20,015 nt of DNA from a virus, in the IMG/VR virus record IMGVR_UViG_3300037961_002898, positions 795 to 20,809 of that record. One strand, 5' to 3'. Below the pieces are notes generated by a model, which made no database searches, was not told the DNA's origin, and was given only the letters and a program-made list of their open reading frames with translations. Position 1 is the first letter of the stretch. The number at the start of each line of letters is the position of its first letter. This document shows positions 465 through 20,015 of this stretch, piece after piece. Position numbers and translations under genes: made by a program.

Positions 465-668
465 CTATTCTTCCCGGTCATTACGAAAACCTTGGTCCCG
501 CATTTCCTGCATACCGGAGGCCCGTATACTACTTTGCCTAAGTATTTCTCGTTTTTCTTCGTCACTTGCGCTTCTCCAAATTCTAATGTCCCTAACAGTC
601 ATTCCACAACCAACACATACGCTCTGTTTGTTCAATGCACACGACCTGACACATGGTGATTTAATCAT
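465..668 (-). CDS. DUF1289 family protein, 67 aa
   Basis: The N-terminal half carries the DUF1289 signature: SPCVRSC, then VCVGCGMT (CxxC), followed by the I-x-x-W segment and the SDEEKREIL helix. The paired cysteine motifs suggest a small metal-binding fold. The family occurs as short standalone proteins in proteobacteria and in some phages, and its biochemical function is unknown. The ATG overlaps the end of the sulfotransferase gene by 8 nt (ATGATTAA), implying translational coupling; its own ribosome site is weak. A 66-codon plus-strand frame covers the same DNA, but the recognisable family on this strand makes this the coding one. Last gene of the three-gene leftward cassette. Confidence 0.8.
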   Translation of the reverse strand: MIKSPCVRSCALNKQSVCVGCGMTVRDIRIWRSASDEEKREILRQSSIRASGMQEMRDQGFRNDREE

Positions 669-1404
669 CTTTTATAAAATCTCTAAGCTTGAAACTGCAA
701 ATTCCTTCGTCTAATACTTTTTTTACACTTTTCGGGTGATCGCTAAAGTGTACATCGTGTAGTAATTTTTCGTAATATTTGAATTTTTCATGATCTCCGT
801 CTAATTCGTCTAGGAATACATTTCTTTTATCCGTCGTGTTTAAGACTGGTACTGAAATGTTTTCGGCGTTGTTGATACCTATGAATTTTGGAATTTGATT
901 AATGTTTTCTCCAGTAAAAACTATCACGTCAACATCCTCTATACCGCTAACTGTATCGCTAGTGACCGTTAAATAAGAGTCGAGTTTACTCCAAGCGAGA
1001 TGGTTTTTCTCTTTCTCTAGCGAGATATTGTCATTCTGAATAAAATTTATCATTTGTGACGCATATTCTAAAACGCCGAGTTTGCCTAAGTTGTTATGCT
1101 CCCAAGGACAACCGCTTGATCCGGGTGGATAATCTAGTAAGTATCTATAAAAACTTTGAACCCAATCCATAGCATCTCTTATGTTCACAAGGAATTTAAA
1201 CTTTCTAATTTCTTGCTCATTAAAGTCACTTCGACAAATTTCAAGTGTTTTTTTTAGTGTAAAATGTCCGTGGTATTTTTTAGATGTAATCTGTACATTG
1301 CAACCGGTTTTCTTGAGGAAATCAATGGTCGAAGTTCCGGCACATTTTGGTACATGGACAAAAAATCCAATTTTTTCTTTTCCTCTGCTAATTAAATATG
1401 GCAT
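661..1404 (-). CDS. Sulfotransferase family protein
   Basis: Likely transfers sulfate from PAPS to a carbohydrate or other acceptor. Near the N terminus is a PAPS 5'-phosphosulfate loop of the form FVHVPKCAGTS, typical of membrane-type carbohydrate sulfotransferases of the HexNAc/Gal class. About 60 residues later VNIRDAMDWVQSFYRYL resembles the 3'-phosphate-binding motif (R-D-x3-x-x-S-x-Y-R). About 247 aa and complete; no transmembrane anchor or signal, so probably cytosolic in the infected cell. Start: ATGs exist at 1416, 1407 and 1404; the GGAG at 1411-1414 is 6 nt before 1404, which I prefer. Second gene of the cassette, 30 nt after the methyltransferase. Acceptor unknown; lipid, surface glycan or virion glycan are all possible. 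Confidence 0.72.
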   Translation of the reverse strand: MPYLISRGKEKIGFFVHVPKCAGTSTIDFLKKTGCNVQITSKKYHGHFTLKKTLEICRSDFNEQEIRKFKFLVNIRDAMDWVQSFYRYLLDYPPGSSGCPWEHNNLGKLGVLEYASQMINFIQNDNISLEKEKNHLAWSKLDSYLTVTSDTVSGIEDVDVIVFTGENINQIPKFIGINNAENISVPVLNTTDKRNVFLDELDGDHEKFKYYEKLLHDVHFSDHPKSVKKVLDEGICSFKLRDFIKDD

Positions 1405-1434
1405 CATTATCTCCATTATGTATTGAATAAAAAC

Positions 1435-2004
1435 CTAATAATTCTTTACGCCCCATCCTTCCCATACAAATTCATTGTTAAATATATTTTTGTAATGGGT
1501 TTCCATCTCGCTAGTTATAGCATTTCTTCTTTCCACATGGTTATCAATGAACCTATGGTATTGAATTAGAAAGTTTTGAAAAACTTTCATCACGTCAGAT
1601 TTCATGACTTTTTCCATAAGTCTGTATTCTTCACCCTCTATATTGATTTTGAATAGATCTACACGTTGTATGTTGTTGTTTTTTATAAACTTTTCTATAT
1701 CTATTAGTTCTATATTATGAGATGCGGTTTCAGAGTAAACTGAAGAACAATCTCCTTCTATTGAGATTTTTACCTTCCTGTCTTTATCAGAAAGTCCAAA
1801 ATTAAAAACTTTTACGTTAGGTTGTTCTTTGTATCTATTTTTGATATTTTCGTAAAAACTAATAACTGGTTCAAATACATAGACAGTTGCACTTGGGTTC
1901 TTTTTTAAAAGCTCGTAAGTCCAGTCTCCTTCAAATCCACCGGCATCGAAAACGATGGGATTTTCGGGTAAAGAAAAGTAATTGACAAGATCGTTAAATT
2001 TCAT
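1435..2004 (-). CDS. FkbM-type SAM-dependent methyltransferase
   Basis: A 189-aa Rossmann-type methyltransferase. Residues about 18-28 (VFDAGGFEGDW) form the glycine-rich SAM loop; YVFEPVISFYENIKNR (about 42-57) provides the acidic ribose-binding residue at the end of strand 2; and FKINIEGEEYRLMEKV matches the D/N-x-E-G-x-E motif diagnostic of FkbM proteins. FkbM enzymes O-methylate natural products and, when near glycan genes, sugars. The ribosome site is strong (AGGGGA, 5 nt spacing). First gene of the leftward cassette with a sulfotransferase and a DUF1289 protein; a sugar methylation role is inferred from this neighbourhood and from the GDP-mannose dehydratase on the plus strand. A TATAAATAA element lies just upstream. 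Confidence 0.8.
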   Translation of the reverse strand: MKFNDLVNYFSLPENPIVFDAGGFEGDWTYELLKKNPSATVYVFEPVISFYENIKNRYKEQPNVKVFNFGLSDKDRKVKISIEGDCSSVYSETASHNIELIDIEKFIKNNNIQRVDLFKINIEGEEYRLMEKVMKSDVMKVFQNFLIQYHRFIDNHVERRNAITSEMETHYKNIFNNEFVWEGWGVKNY

Positions 2005-4444: not shown

Positions 4445-5518
4445 ATGAAGACAGCTATAATCTTTGGGATAACAGGACAAGATGGAAGTCACTTGGCGGA
4501 CTTGCTACTAGAAAAAAACTATAAAGTTACGGGCGTTACAAGAAGAACGAGTACGGACAACACGACACGTATTTCGCACATACTTAATAACAAAAATTTC
4601 AGACTAGCAAGCGGCGACATTACAGATGCATCCAGTGTTTTAAATATACTTAGAGAACACGAACAAGTAGATGAAGTCTATAATCTTGCAGCACAATCGC
4701 ACGTTGCAGTTTCATTTAAGCAACCCGGATTAACTTGGGACATAACAGGAAAAGGTTGTTTGAATATCCTACAAGGGTTGGTAGATCTAAACATGTTAGG
4801 TGCTAGATTTTATCAAGCAAGCAGCAGTGAGATGTTTGGAAAAAATTATGATGTTGAATTAGGGATGACTACTGAAAGCAAATATCAAAATGAAGAGACT
4901 AAGTTTTTGCCGCAAAGTCCATATGCTATTGCTAAATGCGCTGCGCACTATATGACTGCTTTATATAGGGATGGTTATGGAATACATGCAAGTGCCGGTA
5001 TACTATTTAATCACGAAGGACCGCGAAGAGGAGAAACTTTCGTAACAAGAAAAATCACAAAATGGATTGGTGACTTTGTTAAATGGATGAACTCGTTAAA
5101 CATAAGTTACGCAGACCTTTCATCAGCATGTGAAGAAGGAGATTCCCTGTTTGCATCTGGAGTTCAGTACAGTTTTCCAAAATTAAGATTAGGAAATTTA
5201 GACGCATACCGAGATTGGGGTTATGCGGGAGACTACTGCGAAGCAATGTGGATGATGCTGCAACAAGATGAAGCAGACGATTATGTTATTTGCACTGGCG
5301 AAACGCATACTATTAGGGAATTTCTTGATGTCGCTTTTAAAGAAGCAGGTATAACAGATTGGTCTAGTTGTGTTATCCAAGATCCAGAGTTCTATAGACC
5401 AGCAGAAGTTGACTACCTTAGAGGCGATTGTAGCAAAGCAAACACTAAACTGGGATGGACACCTAAACATAGTTTTGAAGATCTAGTAAAAATGATGGTA
5501 AAGCATGATCTAGAATGA
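4445..5518 (+). CDS. gmd: GDP-mannose 4,6-dehydratase
   Basis: Converts GDP-D-mannose to GDP-4-keto-6-deoxy-D-mannose, precursor of GDP-fucose, GDP-rhamnose, GDP-perosamine and related sugars. It is a complete extended short-chain dehydrogenase: NADP-binding GITGQDGS at residues 8-15, the SSSEMFG catalytic segment at 126-132, YAIAK with Tyr160 and Lys164, the RRGETFVTRKIT substrate segment at 194-205, and RLGNLDAYRDWGYAGDY at 248-264. All catalytic residues are present. The region between the KIT helix and RLGNLDA (about 214-246) is about 30 residues longer than in typical enzymes. A ribosome site AAGGA precedes the ATG one base after the preceding stop. No epimerase/reductase is nearby, so the end sugar must come from host or other phage enzymes. 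Confidence 0.93.
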   Translation: MKTAIIFGITGQDGSHLADLLLEKNYKVTGVTRRTSTDNTTRISHILNNKNFRLASGDITDASSVLNILREHEQVDEVYNLAAQSHVAVSFKQPGLTWDITGKGCLNILQGLVDLNMLGARFYQASSSEMFGKNYDVELGMTTESKYQNEETKFLPQSPYAIAKCAAHYMTALYRDGYGIHASAGILFNHEGPRRGETFVTRKITKWIGDFVKWMNSLNISYADLSSACEEGDSLFASGVQYSFPKLRLGNLDAYRDWGYAGDYCEAMWMMLQQDEADDYVICTGETHTIREFLDVAFKEAGITDWSSCVIQDPEFYRPAEVDYLRGDCSKANTKLGWTPKHSFEDLVKMMVKHDLE

Positions 5519-6026: not shown

Positions 6027-6522
6027 GTACAAGACTGCTCCGGGGTACACTGTGGTTAGAGACACAAGAGAGCAGCAGGGATATTTCTTTAAAAAATTCA
6101 ATACGTGTCAAGGTACAGTACAAAGAAAACTTGATACTGGTGACTATTCTATACTGGGTATGGAAGAGAAGGTGTGCATAGAAAGAAAAGCAAGCGTATC
6201 AGAAATAGCGCTAAATCTAGGTAAGGGTAAATACGCCTTTTATAACGAAGTAGAAAGAATGAGAGAGTATGAACACAAGTTTATAATTTGTGAGTTTTCT
6301 ATGGAAGATGTTATGAAATTTCCAGAAGGCGCTAATATACCCAAAGAATTAAAAAACAAAGTGAAGATAACAGGAAAGTATATACTAAGATGCTTAATGG
6401 AGTTTGCAGTATTTAATGATGTACACGTTATATTCGCTGGTAGCGAAAGAGGAGCATTTGACCTGACAAGCAGTCTCTTAAAAAGAATTAACGAAAAGTA
6501 CACGATAGGGCGCAAATCATGA
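6019..6522 (+). CDS. ERCC4-type nuclease
   Basis: A 167-aa protein with the XPF/ERCC4 nuclease core: VRDTREQQGYF near residues 13-23 (D of the first motif), KLDTGDYSILG at about 37-47, and the hallmark VCIERKASVSE at about 52-62 (GD...ERK). In the common ERKxxxD form the last Asp is replaced here by Ser, with Glu next to it, so activity should be checked. No helix-hairpin-helix domain is visible at the C terminus, so it is a nuclease core alone. Related phage proteins are thought to cleave branched or flap structures during recombination and packaging. It overlaps the HNH gene by 8 nt and the ClpP-like gene by 4 nt, suggesting that all act on replicated DNA entering capsids or at expression of the same stage. 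Confidence 0.78.
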   Translation: MGKYKTAPGYTVVRDTREQQGYFFKKFNTCQGTVQRKLDTGDYSILGMEEKVCIERKASVSEIALNLGKGKYAFYNEVERMREYEHKFIICEFSMEDVMKFPEGANIPKELKNKVKITGKYILRCLMEFAVFNDVHVIFAGSERGAFDLTSSLLKRINEKYTIGRKS

Positions 6523-7130
6523 CAACGAATAGAGATAGCGTTGGTGAAATACATTCCTACAATATAGATGTAAAGAACAGAGAAATCTATATAAACGAGT
6601 TTGATGACTCTGGAGAAACTGGGGGTGTAGATCACAGGATGCTTCAGAATTTTATTAAAAACATAAACATATTAAAAAATCTAAGTAGAGATCCTATTAC
6701 CATACATATGCAAACGGTAGGTGGTTGCTGGTACTCCGGGATGGGTATATACGATGCCATTAAAAGTTGCAAATGTAAAACTACTTTTATTGGATATGGT
6801 CAACTATGCTCTATGGGTACTGTTATAATACAAGCTGCCAATAGACGTTTAATTACTGACAACTCTGCGTTTATGGTTCACTGGGGCAGTAGTGAGATAA
6901 GTGGCTACTACTTAACTGCACAAAACATTGCCGACTTTGAAAAATACACCGCACAACAAATGATAGAAATATATGCAGAAAGATGTCAAAGAGGAGATTA
7001 CTTTAAAGAACGTCAAAACAATTTATCTAAAACTAAAGCATACCTAAAAAGAAAACTAGGAGGGGGCGATTGGTATATGACAGCAGATGAGGCTGTATAT
7101 TACGGATTCGTCGATGGAATTTATAAATGA
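6519..7130 (+). CDS. ClpP-type serine protease (peptidase S14)
   Basis: A 203-aa ClpP-fold protein with an intact catalytic triad: Ser98 in GQLCSMGTVI, His121 in AFMVHWGSSE, and Asp184 in GGGDWYMTADEAV, followed by the conserved EAVYYGFVD end. The TVGGCWYSGMGIYDAI segment (about 66-81) matches the PGG-type oxyanion region and helix. No ClpA/ClpX-binding features are evident. Phage S14 proteins in this genomic position frequently serve as prohead proteases, but here another protease-like domain follows the portal gene, so its substrate is uncertain: it could process head proteins or degrade host proteins. ATGA overlaps join it to both neighbours. Confidence 0.85.
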   Translation: MTTNRDSVGEIHSYNIDVKNREIYINEFDDSGETGGVDHRMLQNFIKNINILKNLSRDPITIHMQTVGGCWYSGMGIYDAIKSCKCKTTFIGYGQLCSMGTVIIQAANRRLITDNSAFMVHWGSSEISGYYLTAQNIADFEKYTAQQMIEIYAERCQRGDYFKERQNNLSKTKAYLKRKLGGGDWYMTADEAVYYGFVDGIYK

Positions 7131-13208: not shown

Positions 13209-14216
13209 ATGTCATATACAGAAAGACCTAGCGAAGAATTTATTTCAGTACTTCGCAAATGTGGTGACTCCGATATGGAAGTCGCCCTTGCAGCACAAAG
13301 AGAATTTGCCAAGGCTTTGGAACTTCCTTTGCGTAAAGGCGTTCTTATCGGAAATATCCTCGGTAATATTTTCGAGACTATCAATGTAGAACCGGGCGGA
13401 AGCACTGAGTATCCTCTCGATTTGCTTTCTCCGGGACTTGAGGGTGAGCATGTTGCTTACACTAATCCGGGTCATGGTCGCGTTCCTGAGCGTGCAGTCG
13501 AAAGCGATTACGTCATGATTCCAACGTACAGCATTGCAAGTAGCATCGACTTCTTGCTCCGCTATGCTCGCGAAGCACGTTGGGACATTACTGCTCGCGC
13601 TATGCAGGTTCTTGAGGCAGGTTTTGTCAAGAAGATGAACGATGATGGTTGGCACACACTTTTGGCTGCTGGCGTTGATCGTAACATCTTGGTTTATGAC
13701 GGTGACGCAACTGCTGGTATGTTCTCAAAGAGACTTGTCAGCTTGCTTCAAACTGTCATGCGCAGAAATGCTGGTGGTAACACCGGAAGTGGAGATCGTG
13801 GTCGCTTGACAGACCTTTACGTTTCTCCAGAAGCGCTTGAAGATGTTCGCAACTGGGGTTTTGATCAGGTTTCTGATGCAACCAGAACTGCGATCTACAA
13901 TGCTGGTGGAGATGGCGCTCCTATCACCAATATCTTTGGTGTAAATCTTCACGACCTTGACGAACTCGGAGAAGGTCAAGAGTATCAAACTTTCTTTGAG
14001 AATGGTCTTGGCGGTTCTGTTCAAGGTAGTGACTCAGAACTTGTTGTTGGTCTTGACCAAGGCGCAAACGACAGTTTCGTTATGCCAATGAAGCAGCAAG
14101 TTTCTATTCACGAAGATCCTACCCTCCATCGTCAGCAGAGAGTTGGTTGGTACGGTTTCGCTGAACTTGGTTTCGGTGTCCTTGATAACCGTAGAGTTAT
14201 TCTCGGAAGCTTCTAA
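13209..14216 (+). CDS. Major capsid protein, HK97 fold
   Basis: A 335-aa protein at the expected place after protease and decoration genes. An N-terminal helical region (to about 40) is followed by NVEPGGSTEYPLDL and ERAVESDYVMIPTYSI, a typical N-arm/E-loop region, then the spine helix IDFLLRYAREARWDITARAM with VLEAGFVKKMNDDGW. LTDLYVSPEALEDVRNWG matches the common P-domain 'lyvsPe' strand-helix in HK97-type capsids, and the C-terminal VGWYGFAELGFGVLDNRRV is a conserved A-domain ending. No long N-terminal delta domain is visible, consistent with the separate scaffold. Strong ribosome site AGGAG; codons are more GC-rich than in the neighbours, as for highly expressed genes. A terminator follows immediately. 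Confidence 0.92.
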   Translation: MSYTERPSEEFISVLRKCGDSDMEVALAAQREFAKALELPLRKGVLIGNILGNIFETINVEPGGSTEYPLDLLSPGLEGEHVAYTNPGHGRVPERAVESDYVMIPTYSIASSIDFLLRYAREARWDITARAMQVLEAGFVKKMNDDGWHTLLAAGVDRNILVYDGDATAGMFSKRLVSLLQTVMRRNAGGNTGSGDRGRLTDLYVSPEALEDVRNWGFDQVSDATRTAIYNAGGDGAPITNIFGVNLHDLDELGEGQEYQTFFENGLGGSVQGSDSELVVGLDQGANDSFVMPMKQQVSIHEDPTLHRQQRVGWYGFAELGFGVLDNRRVILGSF

Positions 14217-18923: not shown

Positions 18924-20015
18924 GTGGGAAGTTGTTGTTGCACACCGCCGCCAGATCCGCCACCTTTAGGTGCTTGTTGTTTCACAGAGATAGTTAACAC
19001 TGAACCAAAAAGCACTGGAGCTGCTCGTCAAAACCAAGGCAGTCCGTATGACGTGCTTAACAATGGTGATCCAGTAGGTAGTTTAGATGCTGCTATAACC
19101 GCCTTGAGTCAGTACCTTCAGGCTGGAGTAGATCTCGGGTATTTCTATGACGTAAACGGGGATGGGTTTATAACCGCCAATGATCTACTTATTTTAATAA
19201 ATTTCAGAAATTTTCTTCAGAGTAATCCTAGGTCTCAAGGAAACATATGCGAAGACAATGTAACTGAAGCTCAATGCTTTGCTAGTTTCCGAGGTATAGG
19301 GTTTGATAGTTCTGATTTTACGTCTGGTCAAGACACTTTATTTAAAAGATACAACCATAGATTTAAAGCAAACCAAAGTTGCGGAGAACAAGTTTCATGT
19401 CCTAATGTTCCTAGTATTACTTATAACACTGCTTGTGGAGAAGTAGATTGCCCCGGATATTACTGTAATCAAAAGACTGGCGAATGCGGTTTACGTAACA
19501 CTATAGACTCAAGTTTGTTAAGCAGATGGCCGTATTCTTTGGTTGACAATTGTGAGGAATGTGAAAAAACTAACCCCGGATGCTGCTGCAAATACTGGAC
19601 AGACCCTGAAGGGAAAATACCAGACTACAATAACGTTACTTATGTTTTCGACGATTACCTTTGCAAAGGTAGAAGAATTTTTCATGTAAATCAATACATA
19701 ACTCCTGATGCATATTTTGCTAGTAAAGAAGAAAATGGATTTTCAATAGATGAGAACTCAAACTTTATTTGCGATGCCTTGTCTCCTTGTAATGGAGACG
19801 ATCCTGATGATGATGATGATACTCCTGTTAGCGGTTGGTATTGCCTTGAGCAGTTTAACAGTGGAAACAAGTTTTGTCAATTCTTTAACAGAGACCCTAA
19901 AGAAGAAGGGTTTATTGACACTGAAGTAAAAGGTGGTCCGTTTCAAGAGAAAAGTATTTGCGACGAGAACTGCGGTGGTGGCGGTGGTGGTAACGGCGGT
20001 GGCGGCGGTGGCGGC
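18924..20015 (+). CDS. Cys-rich, dockerin-like structural protein (partial at 3' end)
   Basis: A frame open from GTG at 18924 to the window end (364 codons, no stop, no in-frame ATG). GGAG 7 nt before the GTG and a 2-nt gap from the fibre stop support the start. It begins VGSCCCTPPPDPPPLGACCF. Residues 43-98 hold two dockerin-like repeats: a degenerate DVLNNGDPVGSLDAAITAL, then DVNGDGFITANDLLILI, whose Asp76, Asn78, Asp80 and Asp87 match a calcium-binding EF-hand loop. The later part has many Cys in CxxC, CCC and CEEC arrangements (for example GCCCKYW), a DDPDDDDD stretch and a terminal polyglycine run. Probably a virion surface, fibre-associated protein; the host-binding or cohesin-like partner is unknown. 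Confidence 0.8.
   Translation, partial: MGSCCCTPPPDPPPLGACCFTEIVNTEPKSTGAARQNQGSPYDVLNNGDPVGSLDAAITALSQYLQAGVDLGYFYDVNGDGFITANDLLILINFRNFLQSNPRSQGNICEDNVTEAQCFASFRGIGFDSSDFTSGQDTLFKRYNHRFKANQSCGEQVSCPNVPSITYNTACGEVDCPGYYCNQKTGECGLRNTIDSSLLSRWPYSLVDNCEECEKTNPGCCCKYWTDPEGKIPDYNNVTYVFDDYLCKGRRIFHVNQYITPDAYFASKEENGFSIDENSNFICDALSPCNGDDPDDDDDTPVSGWYCLEQFNSGNKFCQFFNRDPKEEGFIDTEVKGGPFQEKSICDENCGGGGGGNGGGGGGG
19974..20015 (+). repeat. Polyglycine GGN codon run at window edge
   Basis: Fourteen consecutive GGT/GGC codons with a single AAC, reaching the window end. Low complexity; flexible linker, or an assembly edge, since contigs often break in such tracts. Confidence 0.7.

Follow-up and report, generated by a model that had tools for sequence, protein, structure and literature searches.

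The cysteine-rich gene and its neighbourhood

The window, which means the whole stretch of DNA analysed here, is the final 20,015 bases of a 20,809-base IMG/VR contig. Its last open reading frame starts with GTG two bases past the stop of the tail-fibre gene and continues beyond the end of the contig, with 364 residues of a Cys-rich protein visible. The features discussed below are the following.

13209..14216, + strand: major capsid protein, assigned from where it lies and from weak similarity to the major head protein of phage G
14851..18921, + strand: main tail-fibre gene with VSG repeats (PHROG 4636 tail spike, E 3.6e-14), immediately upstream of the Cys-rich gene
18924..20015, + strand: Cys-rich modular protein, from the open reading frame list (relatives on three contigs, L002-L004, 67-82% identity, full length)
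18969..18989, + strand: first half of the N-terminal Cys module (GACCFTE); GxCC modules occupy the corresponding position in the RCC1-type proteins and in further phages of this group
19050..19088, + strand: decayed F-hand 1, residues 43-55, DVLNNGDPVGSLD, from the alignment of four relatives
19059..19202, + strand: Dockerin_1-like segment, residues 46-93, above the cut-off of Pfam PF00404
19149..19184, + strand: F-hand calcium loop 2, residues 76-87, DVNGDGFITAND, from the sequence and per-position counts; near-invariant in four relatives
19248..19403, + strand: second half of the Cys module (CEDNVTEAQC...CGEQVSCP), from alignments, downstream of the inserted segment

Terminase, portal (by position), capsid and tail-fibre genes lie upstream of the Cys-rich gene. 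In the phage collection the capsid protein found only a distant match, the phage G major head protein (20.6% identity, E 1e-3). It served as the query for collecting relatives of the group, and IMG/VR holds at least 597 of them, on contigs of up to 174 kb. The group is widespread, mostly aquatic and, as far as 50,697 phage records show, uncultured. A Cys-rich protein starting ...TPPP..GxCC... follows directly behind the tail fibre in about 20 of the collected loci, and the next genes in the relatives encode a glycosyltransferase and another fibre-like protein. The window gene and its relatives belong to the tail-fibre region, where they come immediately after the tail-fibre gene. This neighbourhood makes the Cys-rich protein a likely tail adhesin, and gene order suggests that it may reside in the virion.

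On the two contigs that hold the whole gene, the relatives of the window protein are 1296 and 1320 residues long, with 82 Cys each. The window protein found no match among the 50,697 phage records, and an IMG/VR search with the dockerin-like segment itself returned nothing beyond the three known relatives. RCC1 repeats were absent from the visible part of the protein in the Pfam scan. The contig terminus (19974-20015) is a GGC/GGT run encoding poly-glycine; the relatives read DGDDDPPHPP there, so the last codons of the frame may be an assembly artefact.

Further genes were noted near the head genes. Sugar-modifying genes lie at 661-2004 (-) and 4445-5518 (+); the set comprises an FkbM-type methyltransferase (PF05050), a GDP-mannose 4,6-dehydratase and a sulfotransferase-like protein recognised by eye, with no Pfam match. 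A ClpP-like protease (6519-7130; PF00574, 76.5 bits) stands directly upstream of the terminase; a repurposed prohead protease and an auxiliary gene are both conceivable.

The dockerin match and its two calcium loops

Dockerins form the plug of a protein-protein lock that is among the strongest known, and they are familiar from cellular enzymes and scaffolds. The initial annotation had proposed a dockerin type I pattern in a phage structural protein, and the profile search bore the pattern out. Pfam Dockerin_1 (PF00404) matched residues 46-93 of the window protein at 27.4 bits (curated gathering cut-off 22.9 bits) with an E-value of 4e-6, calculated for a search of this single protein through 24,736 models, and it exceeded the cut-off in this protein again when the whole record was scanned. 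Three EF-hand families (PF13405, PF13499 and PF00036) reached 13-16 bits, below their cut-offs of 25-30, with a best E-value of 0.014; Dockerin_1 was thus ahead of any EF-hand family. All four close-family members matched Dockerin_1 at E-values up to 0.1. The match in the window protein is above chance. The dockerin-type module and the tail-region setting of that proposal are borne out by the profile, by the adjoining tail fibre and by the complete dockerins of the relatives described below, while the word structural derives from gene order.

Loop 2, DVNGDGFITAND, carries the full set of ligands that had been named for it (D76, N78, D80 and D87), and NDLLILINFRNFL comes next. It fits the pattern D1, N/D3, D/N/S5 and D12 in a loop of 12 residues with a predicted helix after it. 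The loop (DVNGDGFIT..D) was identical in all four close-family proteins except at positions 10-11. When the window gene was compared with that of L002, amino-acid-changing relative to silent change stood at 0.27 in the region of loop 2 and its helix versus 0.53 elsewhere, but the comparison involves only a handful of changes.

Loop 1, DVLNNGDPVGSLD, is one residue over length and is without the ligand pattern. That the first repeat lacks typical ligands had been remarked at the outset, and it holds for the family, since the loop is degenerate in four of four close-family proteins. In L004 it has gained a four-residue insertion and lost both the first and the last Asp. Two tandem F-hands that both bear calcium ligands were therefore found neither in the window copy nor in its three close relatives. 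With loop 2 intact but loop 1 decayed, the strict two-F-hand rule makes the window copy dockerin-like rather than a complete dockerin. The structure model of the segment placed helices at residues 50-67 and 85-100 with low confidence (pLDDT 36), and these helices were left out as evidence.

The xylanase dockerin of C. thermocellum (PF00404; PDB 1ohz and 2ccl) shares the two-part loop-helix layout and the DxNxDGxIxxxD loop with the phage segment. Cellulosomal dockerins occur in secreted glycosidases, whereas the segment here lies inside a phage tail-region protein, and the window copy has one decayed repeat.

It is most improbable that chance or convergence produced the segment as a generic EF-hand-like loop with no relation to dockerins. 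Its ligand-bearing half is weakly EF-hand-like (E 0.01-0.06), and the window family alone scored about equally against solved EF-hand proteins and solved dockerins, the dockerin structures giving an E-value of 0.01 with one half only aligned. Against this origin, Dockerin_1 is the sole family above cut-off for the segment and covers both of its halves, and the same gene slot in relatives holds complete dockerins. A profile-profile comparison (hhalign) of the window segments with those of these relatives gave an E-value of 4e-7 in the loop-2 region, which also argues against a chance resemblance.

Complete dockerins in related phages

Fifty phage contigs of the group were scanned with Dockerin_1. 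Ten had a match, six of them above the cut-off, and three further contigs, found later, exceeded it too. Complete two-loop dockerins, scoring up to 50.9 bits, were present in eight relatives of the gene, which occupy the same slot as the window gene. The eight dockerin-bearing proteins were aligned and were 28-52% identical. They begin with the same Cys module and continue with an RCC1-like propeller, and RCC1_2 repeats (PF13540) occurred in all eight. Consistently, a Foldseek search with the model of an RCC1-type protein matched BLIP-II and RCC1-family structures with E-values down to 1.9e-12. The dockerin part of this model had a pLDDT below 50.

In these RCC1-type dockerins, positions 1, 3, 6 and 12 of both loops are essentially fixed and positions 10-11 vary, so that two tandem F-hands with calcium ligands are present. 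A profile of the segments found the cellulosomal dockerins 2ccl and 1ohz in the PDB at an E-value of about 1.5e-6, with both repeats aligned. The same profile matched 13 distinct contigs, some of them nearly identical.

The place of the insert differs between the carriers. In the window family the dockerin-like segment splits the N-terminal Cys module, between GACC and CEDNVTE. In the RCC1-type proteins the Cys module has no dockerin interrupting it, and the dockerin sits between two propeller blades. RCC1 and BLIP-II beta-propellers (PF13540) therefore resemble the carrier of the insert in the relatives, but not the visible part of the window protein. No dockerin insert was found in the RCC1 proteins of other phages. 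A third carrier may be the tail fibre of locus L042 (10663-14397), in which a half-match lies inside the fibre and scores 17.3 bits (E 0.005), below the Pfam cut-off. From these sequences, the module has been inserted at two or more, probably three, sites in tail-region proteins; this is a count of sites and not of separate captures. The segment in the L042 fibre reads PGDFNNDGVVDAADYTIWSDNYG...VTADYTLWADNIG, which we take to look like planctomycete or verrucomicrobial dockerins. Half a dockerin was also seen in another phage (IMGVR_UViG_3300013117_000172, locus L118, 5722-6126), in a 134-residue protein with a signal-like N-terminus and a fibronectin-III-like part, adjoining a glycosyltransferase-like gene.

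What is new here is that complete dockerins recur, across a widespread phage group, in the tail region; the window copy is a weaker, half-decayed version. None was found in the 50,697 phage records. Our literature search returned no description of a phage-tail dockerin that held up. Dockerin similarity has been mentioned for two tail-type proteins, VvAW1 gp40 (PMC3558961) and vB_EcoS_HSE2 Gp02 (PMC5967307). We rejected both as dockerins: rescanning of gp40 gave only an esterase domain and no Dockerin_1 match, and Gp02 was modelled as a carbohydrate-binding module with no dockerin repeat.

Possible roles, partners and hosts

The analogy with known dockerins suggests, with about an even chance of being right, that this calcium-stabilised module is an exchangeable binding insert on a virion adhesin, most likely for attachment to the host surface. 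In this reading the Cys-rich, adhesin-like tail-region protein has received a dockerin-type module, which would present its compact loop-helix binding face outward, and such modules would be exchanged as inserts within the phage group. The face would attach the virion to a host-surface protein, for which a cohesin or a cohesin-like domain is the obvious putative partner. The profile match, the complete dockerins of the relatives with their fixed ligand positions, the differing carriers of the insert, its absence from the RCC1 proteins of other phages, the position next to the tail-fibre genes and the planctosome precedent count for this reading. The loop 1 of the window copy, non-functional by sequence, the alignment of the window family alone with solved dockerins over one half only, the lack of a cohesin in 50 phage records and the low pLDDT of both models (36 for the window segment, below 50 for the RCC1-type dockerin) count against it. 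As only F-hand 2 keeps its ligands, the window copy could manage no more than a single binding orientation, or might act chiefly as a spacer clamped by calcium.

The planctosome is a noncellulosomal cohesin/dockerin assembly proposed in freshwater Planctomycetes (PMC6461901). It likewise concerns dockerins apart from cellulose degradation, in aquatic bacteria; its dockerins belong to cellular proteins with signal peptides, whereas the present ones belong to a phage gene beside tail fibres. Recognition between dockerin and cohesin in cellulosomes involves positions 11, 12, 18, 19, 22 and 23 of each F-hand motif (PMC4728124). The variable positions of the phage dockerins are 10-11, and the key recognition positions of that paper are 11-12 in its own motif numbering. 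Where C. thermocellum has a conserved Lys-Arg at 18-19 (PMC4728124), the phage dockerins have an invariant Asn at 18, with numbering that may differ by one.

A calcium-dependent structural clamp or spacer in a large extracellular-type protein, with no partner bound, is the main rival to host-surface attachment and a possibility to be taken seriously, though a tentative one. It would agree with the retention of ligands by one loop only in the window family, with the free variation of surface positions of the module, with the phage contigs (50 records) that have no cohesin, and with an insert that lies between propeller blades or within a Cys module like a tolerated insertion. Complete two-loop dockerins that keep nearly all ligands in about 12 related contigs, at 28-52% protein identity, speak against it, and the recurrence of one module type at several insertion sites suggests a role beyond that of a spacer.

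Docking onto another protein of the same particle, which would help to assemble a tail-tip complex, ranks below both and is unlikely. The gene is flanked by tail-fibre genes, and the known dockerin systems use the module for assembly (PMC4728124). The cohesin search that the initial annotation had called for gave no match on the phage side: none of the 50 phage records, a set with two long records of 163 and 174 kb, contained Cohesin (PF00963). A partner of the known cohesin family within the virion is therefore unlikely, although the search could miss a diverged, cohesin-like Ig fold. A dockerin was carried by only 8 of the 36 collected loci that extend at least 5.4 kb past the capsid gene, which argues that it is not a core part of the assembly.

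Among these proposed roles, we rank host-surface attachment as the most likely. Recurring dockerins in differing protein contexts suggest that phages may use the cohesin-dockerin lock for attachment. The wider proposal, that phages of an abundant, uncultured lineage have on repeated occasions taken host-type dockerins into their tail-region proteins and that their virions plug into cohesin-bearing proteins of the host surface, is speculative and we consider it rather doubtful. If true, it would be the first known case, within the searches made here, of a virus that uses the lock as a receptor system. The recurring dockerins also give a lead for host finding, namely to look in the waters of the phage group for bacteria that carry cohesins on their surface.

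The capsid protein was also searched against GTDB genomes, where it matched four metagenome bins labelled SAR202, Alphaproteobacteria, Flavobacteriales and Chitinophagia. These labels are of unrelated groups, and we read the matches as binning noise and rejected the bins as hosts. No dockerin was found in any of the four bins, and no cohesin in the SAR202 bin. This bin (OSU_TB57, our G051) holds contig C9 of the phage group, and it may be mixed, since its DUF1501 scores are far above those of its class peers.

DUF1501 proteins are typical of Planctomycetota and related groups. They are encoded in three phages of the group (G012, G021 and G037), the two longest and one more. G012 has two of them (L104, 14110-16607), which score 303 and 368 bits and have N-termini resembling RR-type export signals. 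The usual distribution of the family suggests that the phage genes are possibly host-derived, a hint of a Planctomycetota/Verrucomicrobiota-like host. The nearest named plasmid homologue, from Singulisphaera, is only 32% identical to the phage protein, and one phage copy is 65-66% identical to the copies in the SAR202 bin.
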